This document shows, one piece after another, positions 59,299 to 64,000 of a DNA stretch of 64,000 nucleotides. Each line of letters starts with the position of its first letter. The stretch's first letter is position 1. This DNA is from Pneumocystis sp. 'macacae' (Eukaryota; Ascomycota; Pneumocystomycetes; Pneumocystales; Pneumocystaceae). The translations under genes were made by a program, and so were the position numbers. The notes beneath the pieces were generated by a model, which saw nothing but the letters and a program-made list of their open reading frames with translations, was not told the DNA's origin and searched no databases. The stretch covers positions 434,001 to 498,000 of the forward strand of contig CM030721.1 in the NCBI GenBank assembly GCA_018127085.1. The letters run 5' to 3'.

Positions 59299-62001
59299 TT
59301 AAGCTTTGACAGGTATTCGATTGCTTTTAGGTAACGTATATTTTGCAAATGCTTTGTTTGTATCAGATTTATAAAAAATTACATAATAGTATATATTACC
59401 TCTTGACAATGATTTTTTAACACTTAATTTTTGGGCACTGATAAAGGAATTGACAATTACCTTGATAGCAGAATCAATATGTTGTGTTTTAACATATTCA
59501 GAAAGATGCATTTTAGCAAACTAAATAAATAAATAATAAAGATAGGACTCAAAAGGATGGTTACCGCTTCGCTTATTCGAATAATTGATTCTAAGTGACG
59601 TACTGTAATAGGGTATGATCCAGTTGCTAAAGATTCTCGTCTCATATCACTATATAACTTAGAAATTTTATCTTGATCCATCTGGTGAAGTTTTGGATGT
59701 ACACGTTCTCTAGCATACATTATATATTTTCGTAATAGATCTTGAGGTATTGGTTCAACTAAATCTGTAAATTGATCAGAATCAACTGAATTTGTAGTAG
59801 AATTGTAACAAGGATGGCTTTTTAAATGTGACCCAATAACAAATTTTGCTAATCTTTCATCTCCTTCAGGATCCACTGTATCTTTTACAACATTTAAAAT
59901 ATCGAATCGAGATAATATTGGTTCTGTAAGTTCCACGTTTTGGCTAAAGGGTATTGTTGTGTTATATCTGCCACCTATAGGATTTGCAGCTGCTAATATT
60001 GCACATCGTGCTTGAAGAGTTGTCACAATTCCTGCTTTAGAGATAGAAATAGATTGTTGTTCCATAGCTTCATGAATTGATGTTCTTTAATAAAGTAAGT
60101 ATTATTAAAATAGCATAATTTTTAATTATACCTATCTTTATCATTCATCTTATCAAATTCGTCGATTAAACAAACGCCTCTATCTGCAAGGACTAATGCT
60201 CCACCTTCCAAAGTCCATTCTCCTGTTACTGGGTCTTTTCTTACACTTGCCGTTAAACCGACAGCACTTGCACCTTGACCTGTTGCGAATATTGCTCTAT
60301 GTGCTATTTTTTCAACATATTTTAGAAATTGAGATTTTGCAGTACCAGGATCACCTAGCATAAGTACATTGATATCTCCACGGATACTGTGTTTACCATT
60401 TATATCTTTCGGTACACCGCCGAACAAAGAACATGCAATTGCTTGTTTTATATCATTATGTCCATAGATAGATGGAGCAATTGACGCAATAATCTAATGC
60501 TATTAAACAAGATACGAAAAGATAACAAAATGCTACTCTTTTGTCTATATTTTCAGTTTTAGATAACTGTTTAATCGCTTTTTCGTCCTCTTCTGTTAAA
60601 TTAAATGTCAAGAATTGGTCATGCATTTTATTAATATGATTAGCTTCAATAACTGTAGCAAAAACAGGAAATCCATTCTTCACGTTTAAAGATGCATCAA
60701 AATTATTCCTGTAAATCCCTGTAACTTCAATTTCTTCACCAGGCTTTGCACTATCAATTAGATCCCACAGGAGAATAACTTCTTTATGACGTGGTAAACG
60801 GCCAGGAGAAATAGTTCCGGGACTTTCTTGTAACGTCATTTTTTGATAATTCCTGTATATTGTTTTTTCTGAATTCAAAGAAAAAGGACCTTTACTTTGA
60901 CAGTTGTGACAAAATCCTATTTTTATTTCCATATGACTATCTTGAGAAAACGGACCGAGAATAATTCCGCATTTTTGACAGTTAAATTTAACATATTTAA
61001 GCTGGGGAAACACGCCTGTACGCCGAGTTACCACCCCCGAAACCCTTATAAGACAATTAAGATGCGCCTGTCGCAATTCTCCAAGCTTAAAGGTTTTAGG
61101 TAATCCTACGATACGAACATGGATTTCACTATGGATACGTTTATAATCAGGATAATGCAAAAGAGTTGTTTCCATGGCCACTCTGTCAAATATAGAAAGG
61201 ACTTCAGAAGGCGAATGGACAAGGAAATATGCTAATACAGCTTTCGACTCTGAAAGATGTGTATAGTTGACTTCAAGACTTTCAGAATTCATTTCTCCAA
61301 GAGTCCGGATGCGATTGCCATAGACCGATGTGCCTTTGCTGTCAGTATACTCGAGGAGAAATGTCTTGAATTCGCGTGAAATTGCTCGCTGCACCGGATC
61401 CATCAGCACCCATTCACTCATCGAATCCGCTTTAACGTCCAGCAGGGCATCTAAAGCAAGCTCCTCATCAACGAGCTCCTCGTCCATCTCCTCCTGCCGG
61501 TCATCATAGTGGCGCCTGCGCCTACGCACCACTGAAAAATCGAACGGGTCATCGTCTTTAACTACATTAAAACCAACCAATCTGCATAAGCCACAGCACC
61601 TTCTTGAAGAAACGCCGCTGTCTTGCGTATCCCCCTTGCTTGCTCAAGCTCCCTGTCGCGTCTCCTGAGCTTTGCCTCCACCTGTCGACGCAATGCCGGG
61701 TCCATTGCCTCATATTCCCCCTCATCATCCAGCTCCTCAATGTCATATTGATCAAGCTCCAGGTTCTCCACATAGTCTCTCCACAGAACATAAGAAAACT
61801 GCACAATACACAGCCGACCCCTCTGGGCCCTGCTGCCTACCGCTCCATGTCCTCCCCAAAAAGATCCTCTCCGTCCTCTTCCTCTGCTGCCTCATCCAAG
61901 TCGTCAATCATGTCGTCAATCAGTGCCTCGTTTTCTGAAATATCAAGCCCGCTGAGCATTGGAGGACTGCTTGGAGGCAGAGAAGACGGCAGTGCGCTCA
62001 T
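59299..62001 (-). CDS. mcm2: Replicative helicase subunit Mcm2
   Basis: MCM2-7 subunit and histone H3-H4 chaperone. The start is taken at 62001 ([20 protein letters not shown]), followed by an acidic N-terminus ([20 protein letters not shown]). A GC-rich intron near 61769-61831 joins ER to [20 protein letters not shown]. Then [20 protein letters not shown], the zinc finger ([12 protein letters not shown] and CHNCQSKG), [20 protein letters not shown] (Walker A), [16 protein letters not shown] (Walker B), [20 protein letters not shown] and [13 protein letters not shown] (Arg finger). The C-terminus SLSRAFAKYTL ends at 59299. GC rises sharply through the first third of the coding sequence while the frame stays intact. 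An in-frame upstream ATG at 62202 overlaps the MLO2 start. Confidence 0.94.
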
Positions 62002-62200
62002 CGTGCCCTCGTCCGGCACCGGTACATCCGAGTCGTTCCGTGTCCGCTTACTCGGCTTCTGTCCTGTCAGAAAGGCCCTGTTTTGCCCAAAAAACAAACC
62101 ATCCTGCTGCCACCGAGCCAGACACTGCTTCTCCGTCTCTGCCCAACGTCCCTTTTTTCGATACACGTCGACACCCACCGCCTTAAAATGCTGTGCCGCC

Positions 62201-63412
62201 ATGTCAGAAAAAGAAACACACTCAAATGCCGACCACGACTCCCAAGTAGGCTCTGAAATAAGCCTGCTCGACTACATCGAGGAGCAGTCCCTGCTGTATG
62301 TCTGCTGCCCTTCCCCTCAGCCAGCCCCAATCCTTGCTGACCACCCACAGAGAAGAAGAGGCCAGAGAGGCCCTCCCATACTCCTTCGACCACTGCACAC
62401 ACGACCGCCGCCTCCGCCAGCCCCTCTATCTCTGCAGAACCTGTCTTCCTGCTAAAGAAGACCTCCACTGCGGCGCCGTCTGCTACTCCTGCAGCATCCA
62501 GTGCCACGGAGGTCCCCCGCCCCCTCCCCCCGCCCCGCCTGACTCTCCAGAACACGAACTCATCGAGCTCTTCTGCAAACGCAACTTCCGCTGCGACTGC
62601 GGCACCGACAGACTCGGATCCCAGGTCTGCAGGATCCGCAACGAGCACTCTCCTGTCGACCCCGACAACCAGTACAACCACAACTTCCAGGGCAGGTTCT
62701 GCTGGTTCCTCTCCCCCCACCCCCACCCCCCATAACCCCCCAGGTGTGATGCCGAGTACGACCCGCTCGCCACCCAGCACACAATGTTCCAGTGCCTCCT
62801 GTGCGAGGACTGGTTCCACGACCACTGCATAGGCCTGGACGCGGCCCCGGGCGACGACGACTTGTTTATCTGTCAAACGTGTCTCAGCAGACACTCATGG
62901 CTAAAAAGATATGTACATGTAGACGGATTCCAGGCCTCCAAAACACTCCCCGGCCCTCTCCGGCCCTCTCCCGCCCCCCGCGCCTTCTGCACCTGGCAGG
63001 CCCTGCCTCCTGCCCCCGACGGCGACTTCTCTCTCTTCCTCCCGCCCCACTTCAGACTCTCTCTGTGCCGCTGCGACCAGTGTCTCGCCCGCTGTGCCGA
63101 AAACCCTGTCCTCCTTGCCGAGGAGCAGACATACCAGCCGCCCCCCGACACCGACTCGTGTACGCCTGTCTCCTGCGCCGCCACGCTTACTGTGCAGCAC
63201 ACAGCCTCCTCGATGCCGGCCTCCGCGCGCTCAACTCTCTCCCGCGCGTCCAGGCAATCGAGGGCATCATTGCGTACAACCACATGAAGGATGCTCTCTG
63301 CAGGTTTCTCCGGCCGTATGCCGAGCAGGGCCGCGTCGTCACCGAGGACGACGTCCGCCACTTCTTCCAGACACACAGAGACGCGCCGTCTCAGTCCTCT
63401 CCGCACGAGTAG
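62201..63412 (+). CDS. mlo2: UBR7/Mlo2-type protein (UBR box + PHD finger)
   Basis: Putative N-recognin/chromatin E3-like protein of the UBR7 family (S. pombe Mlo2). The start at 62201 gives MSEKETHSNADHDSQVGSEI. After intron 62296-62350 come EEEAREALPYSFDHCTHDRR, LRQPLYLCRTC, GAVCYSCSIQCHGEHELIEL and FCKRNFRCDCGTDRL (UBR box). NQYNHNFQGRFCWCDAEYDP leads into FQCLLCEDWFHDHCIGLD and DDLFICQTCL (PHD). The C-terminal exon has RVQAIEGIIAYNHMKDALCR and VVTEDDVRHFFQTHRD. Introns 62512-62550 and 62705-62743 are 39 nt and C-rich, with GTCCCC and GTTCCT donors; a fourth joins TC to CLLDAG. It is GC-rich throughout. Confidence 0.9.
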
Positions 63413-63422
63413 CACCCTGCGC

Positions 63423-64000
63423 CTACAGCCGCCCAAACGGCGTCAGCTCCTGCAGATCCCTTACCAGGCTTCGCACATTGTGCAGATACCGTGCAAGCAG
63501 CGCCTCCTTCTCCTCTGTCGACCGCCGTATGTCCAGCGCCCTGTTTGTTGCCGGCCCTGCAAACACCGGCTCCGGGACAAGATAGAAGTACAGAAACTCT
63601 GCAATCTTCAACTTGACCTTCTGCGACGAGTCCCTTGACTTCATCAGTGCAGCGACTGCTGCCAGCCCGTCCAGCGACTCAAAGACCCGGACATTGTCCC
63701 AGCGGTCAACGAGTGCTGCAACCAGTGTCCCGAGTGCTGCAATCTGCACCTCTGCTGCTGCGTCGGGGCCGAGCAGCCCGAGGACCATCTGCACACATAA
63801 GCCCTGCCCTGTGCAGCAGCCATACATTCATGTTGGAGTGCCGCGTAAACAGGCTGCGCGACTCGGCGTGCAGCAGCAGACTGCCCTGCAGCAGCTCGAG
63901 TGTGTCGCATATGTGTGCAGGCTCTGCTGCTGCACCAAGCAGCCGCCCGAGACACGCAACCAGCTGTGTCGCCACTGCCCTGTCAGCCTGCCCGCTGCAC
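63423..64000 (-). CDS. cdc14: SIN pathway protein Cdc14 (S. pombe type), 5' end outside window
   Basis: Septation initiation network component that binds the kinase Sid1; unrelated to the budding-yeast phosphatase Cdc14. The upstream exon reads ATQLVACLGRLLGAAAEP and CDTLELLQGSLLLHAESRSL, FTRHSNMN. An intron beginning GTATGG and ending TGTGCAG (about 37 nt) joins to MVLGLLGPDAAAEVQIAALG, TLVAALVDRWDNVRVFESLD, SSQKVKLKIAEFLYFYLVPE and RRSTEEKEALLARYLHNVRS. FESLDGL, KLKxxEFLYFYLxPE and RSTEEKxxLLxRYLxNV are the family boxes. The stop at 63423 is only 10 bases from the MLO2 stop, so the two genes converge tightly. GC-rich, Ala-rich. Confidence 0.85.

Follow-up and report, generated by a model that had tools for sequence, protein, structure and literature searches.

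Narrow GC-rich islands with mirrored strand skew in the genome of Pneumocystis sp. 'macacae', candidate sites of recurrent meiotic breaks

The window analysed here is a stretch of 64,000 bases from the monkey lung fungus Pneumocystis sp. 'macacae' (P. macacae), C2:434001-498000, where C2 denotes contig CM030721.1. In its last 3 kb, which hold the 5' part of MCM2, MLO2 and CDC14, the guanine-plus-cytosine content (GC) rises suddenly out of AT-rich DNA. This rise is the left shoulder of a narrow GC-rich island, which also contains RPL44 and at least the first exon of a gene that may be SAM37/metaxin-like, a name taken solely from a Pfam GST_N_4 match. An earlier note, made from the window alone, had read the rise as a transition from AT-rich to GC-rich DNA. 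The narrowness of the feature, its dozens of copies and its mirrored strand skew were invisible to that note because the window stops near the island centre. We analysed a further 75,860 bases of C2 and compared the island with others in the genome of 8,274,841 bases on 19 contigs.

Along the left shoulder GC climbs from 0.315 (60800-60999) through 0.525 (61300-61499) to 0.62-0.645 (62300-62599), and from 62.6 kb to position 64000 it stays at 0.58-0.665. The steep climb described earlier is thus real, but it takes ~1.5 kb to reach the plateau, not ~1 kb. Over window positions 1-60000 GC averages 0.280 (standard deviation 0.045, sixty 1-kb bins) and the highest sliding 1-kb value is 0.423, so the plateau lies well beyond local variation. 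To the right of the window GC remains near 0.6 up to C2:500.0 kb, drops to 0.30 at C2:500.5-500.75 kb and 0.258 at 501-502 kb, and keeps to 0.258-0.317 over 501-504 kb; the right flank at C2:504-513 kb is slightly higher than the left (0.33-0.41). The rise is the shoulder of an island and not the border of a GC-rich domain, as GC has returned to 0.30 by C2:500501. The island, one of many, is ~5.5 kb wide, from window position ~61000 to C2:500500, 2.5 kb beyond the window end. It is too narrow for an isochore, a domain of tens to hundreds of kb, and it is not a CpG island, since its ratio of observed to expected CpG (0.78-1.00 in island bins) does not exceed that of flanking bins (0.67-1.17; 490-506 kb).

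The rise begins within the single MCM2 reading frame and carries on through MLO2 and CDC14, introns included, as the earlier note had it (Table 1). A comparison by part of the MCM2 exon, which that note had suggested, gives GC at fourfold-degenerate sites of 0.27 in the AT-rich half and 0.44 in the island half. Exons, introns and intergenic DNA have all gained GC: fourfold sites reach 0.59-0.76 in four genes, the four MLO2 introns 0.72, and the stretch upstream of the SAM37-like gene (66140-66460) 0.55. The largest shift at fourfold sites, from 0.27 to 0.76, amounts to 2.15 log-odds units, which would correspond to a moderate scaled bias if composition is at equilibrium and mutation is unchanged. 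Strand skew at these sites sides with the island half more than with gene direction, being negative on the left for both MLO2 (plus) and CDC14 (minus) and positive on the right for the SAM37-like gene (minus); in the island half of MCM2 the plus-strand value is -0.06.

Table 1. Features of the window island and repeats in this and other islands. Positions are those of the window, continued beyond 64000 where stated, unless a locus (L) or contig (C) is named; skews are those of the plus strand where so marked.
Feature	Position	Strand	Basis or values
Left part of GC island; plus strand C-rich	61000..64000		GC and skew profile
MCM2 reading frame across island edge	60456..61580	-	open reading frame; protein matches
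MCM2, further 5' exons within island; start codon provisional	61562..62199	-	protein match to P. jirovecii and others
MLO2 (UBR7-like), five exons, spliced in this analysis	62201..63412	+	fourfold GC 0.76; plus-strand skew -0.65
MLO2 introns	62296-62350, 62512-62550, 62705-62743, 63158-63204	+	GC 0.72, skew -0.63
CDC14 (septation initiation network, SIN, component)	63423..64000, on to 64202 in C2	-	fourfold GC 0.72, plus-strand skew -0.45 (two splice junctions approximate)
CDC14 intron	63789-63825	-	GC 0.61
RPL44	64256-64637 (window-continued)	+	spans centre 64334; fourfold GC 0.68, skew -0.59
Putative SAM37/metaxin-like gene, at least first exon in island	right of centre	-	fourfold GC 0.59, plus-strand skew +0.54
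CGCATACANNN-like array	L002:1238-1602 (C2:499238-499602), L011:4141-4184, L013:4745-4871, L014:4445-4654		
Interstitial GGGTTAGGGTTAG in GC islands	L012:2615, L013:1919 and 2199, L023-L028		

The polarity of the island is shared by every other island that was read. Six were read in all, the window island and five more of 7 kb each (L010-L014), the five having been picked for many GC hits and not as a random sample. Plateaus in the five are mostly at 0.6-0.75 GC; both shoulders are visible in the window island, L010, L011 and L014, and one shoulder in L012 and L013. The plus strand is C-rich on the left and G-rich on the right in all six. At the geometric midpoint the right-minus-left difference in skew is 0.45, 0.58, 0.62, 0.76, 0.48 and 0.37, as against a background with mean 0, standard deviation 0.126 and maximum 0.30 (209 overlapping windows of the same contig). 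Placing a centre by cumulative skew tends of itself to yield a sign switch; the midpoint version does not. Twelve C-run patterns were tried in the six islands, and the 11 that hit do so on the expected side throughout; as the patterns overlap, this counts as one result.

By cumulative skew the window island is centred 334 bp beyond the window end (window-continued 64334). Averaged over the six islands, of which fewer than six contribute past 2.75 kb, GC within 750 bp of the centre is 0.66; it falls to 0.62 at 1.5 kb and 0.51 at 2 kb, and further out to 0.39 at 2.75 kb and 0.34 at 3.25 kb. The mean outward skew starts at +0.16 within 250 bp of the centre, runs at +0.27 to +0.36 over 0.25-2.5 kb and has fallen to +0.02 at 3.25 kb. 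At 500-750 bp the outward strand has G 0.44, C 0.23, A 0.18 and T 0.16; for the plus strand of window positions 1-60000 the values are G 0.144, C 0.136, A 0.352 and T 0.368. These profiles fit a point source that acts over a few kb in both directions.

Islands of this kind are numerous. Among the matches listed, GC-rich and C-run patterns form at least 63 internal clusters, 2-6 per contig on C1-C16, and at least 77 when two repeat motifs are added; 17 of 54 GC-pattern clusters among those matches rest on a single hit. For these positions overlapping hits were thinned, and hits near contig ends and pure poly-C runs were dropped, one of the dropped runs being internal (C10:306592). A regional centromere would be expected once per chromosome, so the clusters as a class are not regional centromeres, but one of each contig's clusters could be a centromere. 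Clusters of C-run and telomere-like repeats, from which hits near contig ends and pure poly-C runs were likewise dropped, number at least 55 internally, 21 of them two-stranded and 34 one-sided among the matches listed, and all 21 two-stranded clusters have C on the plus strand at the left and C on the minus strand at the right, an order with a probability of ~5e-7 under a fair coin. We also read 14 short stretches, again not a random sample, picked because they contain an array or a telomere-like repeat while no GC hit was listed for them. Their mean GC is 0.36-0.63, in every case above the 0.28 background, and island strength is therefore graded. Ten of the 14 switch from minus to plus skew (L018 only in its last bin), four are one-sided and none is reversed.

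Two further observations concern contig ends. A GC-rich word, GCGCCACCCCCCGCGCC, is repeated a few kb from many contig ends (for example C1:8040, C2:8107, C4:14532, C8:12159 and C14:654834) and is a subtelomeric repeat. The last 9 kb of C2 (C2:565001-573860; L008, L009) has a GC skew of +0.61 to +0.71, far stronger and longer than that of the islands, and is likely a subtelomeric gene array.

Two repeats recur in the islands. The first is a degenerate array with a period of ~11 bp and a unit like CGCATACANNN, present in four of the six. Its pattern, CGCATA-N6-GCATA, has 175 hits genome-wide compared with 5 for the reversed control, and of the 26 array clusters among the matches listed on C1-C8, 16 have a GC or C-run cluster nearby. 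We rejected this array as a common trigger, as it has no fixed direction and is missing from L010 and L012. The second repeat is the interstitial telomere-like GGGTTAGGGTTAG, found at 20 internal places, at least 14 of which have a GC-pattern cluster no more than 4 kb away. Its direction matches the local skew, with the G strand outward, at the eight places read (L012, L013 and L023-L028; L026 lies at the switch). Degenerate CCCTAA and CCCTAG units are also numerous in the islands, with the C strand reading toward the centre; CCCTAA points to the centre 19 times in the six islands and away from it 3 times, although the skew itself accounts for much of this orientation. Telomere healing at central breaks was rejected because it predicts the opposite repeat direction.

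The bias has also reached protein sequence. Gly, Ala, Arg and Pro are frequent in P. macacae MLO2, as the earlier note had stated: over 239 shared columns they together make up 0.268, whereas the other Pneumocystis sequences, five in number (P. jirovecii, P. canis, P. carinii, P. oryctolagi and one metagenome-type sequence), have 0.163-0.192, and Lys/(Lys+Arg) is 0.18 compared with 0.47-0.57. The outgroups Saitoella, Neolecta and S. pombe have 0.178-0.225 for the same four residues, so the MLO2 shift was most simply gained in P. macacae. Against P. jirovecii, the best local match of MLO2 has 50% identity, and the adjacent MCM2 has 90%. The Lys/Asn/Glu-rich linker of the other Pneumocystis MLO2 sequences corresponds to a short Pro-rich stretch in P. 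macacae. A second example is MON2 on contig C3, whose protein is 100% identical to PMAC_002103 and whose 5' end sits in the L014 island. Over MON2 residues 201-600 the four residues make up 0.322 and 0.288, compared with 0.190-0.201 and 0.152-0.190 in other sequences; the shift is small at residues 601-1000 and absent from 1001 on. MON2 residues 1-200 are GC-type in P. oryctolagi and P. jirovecii as well, with 0.366 and 0.317, respectively, over the 82 aligned residues at the start, above the other three (0.207-0.268). This speaks against a gain in P. macacae only; perhaps these two species have a weaker island at the MON2 5' end. In MCM2 the shift is weak. Changes specific to P. macacae number 8 among the 312 island residues and 7 among the 453 others, and by our reading 7 of the 8 and 3 of the 7 are toward GC-richer codons. 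Next after MCM2 lies a protein kinase-like gene (window 58466-59110, minus; P0003, P0006). MCM2 is joined to a kinase domain in the public models for P. oryctolagi and P. canis, probably an annotation artefact.

We favour the reading that the islands are fixed meiotic break hotspots with GC-biased, strand-polarised conversion, to which we give a probability of roughly 0.55. Double-strand breaks would recur near one point, here close to the RPL44 start beside the CDC14/RPL44 divergent promoter, and 5' ends would be resected outward for up to ~3 kb. The inward-pointing 3' tails would then invade, and repair of the heteroduplex would favour G and C, with the tail strand gaining C. Since the invading strands would be the inward 3' tails, the bias would be polarised, and the outward-reading strand would gain G on both sides. 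Breaks, resection and biased repair would jointly explain a point source, action in both directions, GC gain, polarity and a reach of 2-3 kb. We infer that breaks act as the point source in a meiotic process, and that the skew arises through tail-directed mismatch repair, with a repair bias that would turn T to C on the tail. Among the causes that the earlier note had offered, a hotspot with GC-biased gene conversion fits best, and a large replication or chromatin domain finds no support at this width.

Genes for such a process are indicated in the genome. Spo11-family exons (PF04406, E 4e-13) match at C12:219853-220082, over the cut-off at 219969-220082, as a one-domain exon match and not an assembled gene. 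UDG-superfamily matches occur at two places, assigned at the superfamily level and not to a T:G type.

Known hotspots offer partial parallels. Those with GC bias in budding yeast, mammals and the flanks of Cryptococcus MAT are likewise narrow GC-rich stretches over genes, introns and intergenic DNA; unlike them, the P. macacae islands go from 28% to ~65% GC at several dozen places and have a strong mirrored skew. In Cryptococcus neoformans GC-rich regions have been tied to raised recombination (cited in PMC6730849). Human break hotspots likewise have mirror symmetry about a point, the flanking 2 kb being asymmetric and the central 100 bp not (PMC7615360); in P. macacae the skew is weakest in the central 250 bp. 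Human resection tracts extend 1-2 kb per side (PMC7615360), and the ~3 kb reach of the skew resembles such a tract length. The human hotspots differ in that theirs is a mutation signal and that of the islands a standing base composition. In mouse cells, single-strand annealing shows strand-biased mismatch resolution with no intrinsic GC bias (PMC9001825), a result that supports the polarity and not the GC gain. A test for GC-biased conversion is also on record for Zymoseptoria (PMC10294615).

Several points weigh against the hotspot reading. A search for a trigger motif shared by all six islands found none. RPL44, at and just right of the putative promoter centre, has a fourfold skew of -0.59, which breaks the side rule if the centre is its promoter. 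Some 400-bp bins also break the rule, for example window-equivalent 65201-65600 (-0.09). Among five placeable islands, two have their centre near a start codon and three inside reading frames (L010, L011, L013). The human asymmetry, as interpreted, includes C>N on the exposed strand (PMC7615360). Such a change would lower C on the tail, the reverse of the skew in the islands, and mutation of exposed tails is therefore not proposed as the source of that skew. The GC bias of fungal conversion is itself disputed, and a tetrad study without bias has been cited (PMC6730849).

The strongest rival is that the centres are replication origins, where mutation or repair linked to the first few kb of leading- and lagging-strand synthesis would raise GC and make the outward leading strand G-rich. 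The mirrored sign is as expected and classic for an origin, at least 63 clusters in 8.27 Mb is a plausible number of origins, and the right flank of the window island has a skew of +0.127 over 10 kb. On the left flank of the same island, the only one read with long flanks, there is no negative domain (+0.048 over 41001-61000). Skew and GC on average fade jointly by ~3.25 kb, whereas forks run much further, and a gain in GC is not expected from fork asymmetry. Bacterial-type origin skew has the same sign, with the G-rich strand outward, but reaches far beyond a few kb. We regard origins as unlikely, though to be taken seriously.

There is a slimmer chance that the sites bind kinetochore or chromatin proteins and that composition follows chromatin. 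P. macacae chromosomes have 4-6 Mis12 peaks by chromatin immunoprecipitation (ChIP), which tend to be GC-rich (PMC10327204), a number similar to our at least 2-6 clusters per chromosome; the comparison is by number and not by coordinates. The authors call the peaks possible artefacts and keep one per chromosome as centromere, and binding alone would explain neither the GC gain nor the mirrored skew.

A little less credible again is the idea of bidirectional promoters with R-loops, like vertebrate CpG islands with GC skew. The window-island centre lies at most ~130 bp from the CDC14/RPL44 divergent start region, and the MON2-island centre lies 71 bp upstream of the MON2 start. As a general rule a divergent promoter fits two of the five placeable centres and fails for the three that lie inside reading frames. 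Vertebrate CpG-island skew has the same sign but follows transcription, unlike the skew here, which persists through MLO2 and the SAM37-like gene, both running toward the centre.

The remaining two explanations are very improbable. The jump in composition is the only argument for a chimeric assembly, for contamination or for transfer from a fungus rich in GC. All three were rejected, the first two also by the earlier note: MCM2 is unbroken across the edge; MCM2 and MLO2 are numbered consecutively in P. canis (000048, 000047) and in P. oryctolagi (002691, 002690); of the five best MLO2 matches, four are Pneumocystis proteins and one is a close relative; and AT-rich DNA flanks both sides of an island that has dozens of counterparts. 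Selection on codons or expression would suit RPL44, which is expected to be highly expressed, but is rejected because introns share the GC gain (0.61-0.72), and only the 5' parts of MCM2 and MON2 are affected.

GC-rich regions of the P. macacae genome are already in print (PMC10327204), a paper in which the parts covered make no mention of island anatomy, skew or recombination. A literature search of open-licence papers found no account of the mirrored skew, the island anatomy or the graded strength. Going beyond the hotspot reading, we put forward tentatively, at somewhat less than even odds, that the islands chart fixed meiotic break sites from sequence alone, with AT-to-GC change mainly as T-to-C on the inward 3' tail, so that the skew records the resected strand. 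If true, this would be a new recombination signature, readable in one genome. Recombination in Pneumocystis is not measurable by crosses, and the fungus cannot be kept in culture; the centre, width and polarity of the islands make both fungal GC bias and Pneumocystis recombination testable from existing reads. The islands also offer a way to test directly whether the several GC-rich Mis12 peaks are real. Finally, island-driven amino-acid change in conserved genes can mislead phylogenies, selection scans and gene finders.

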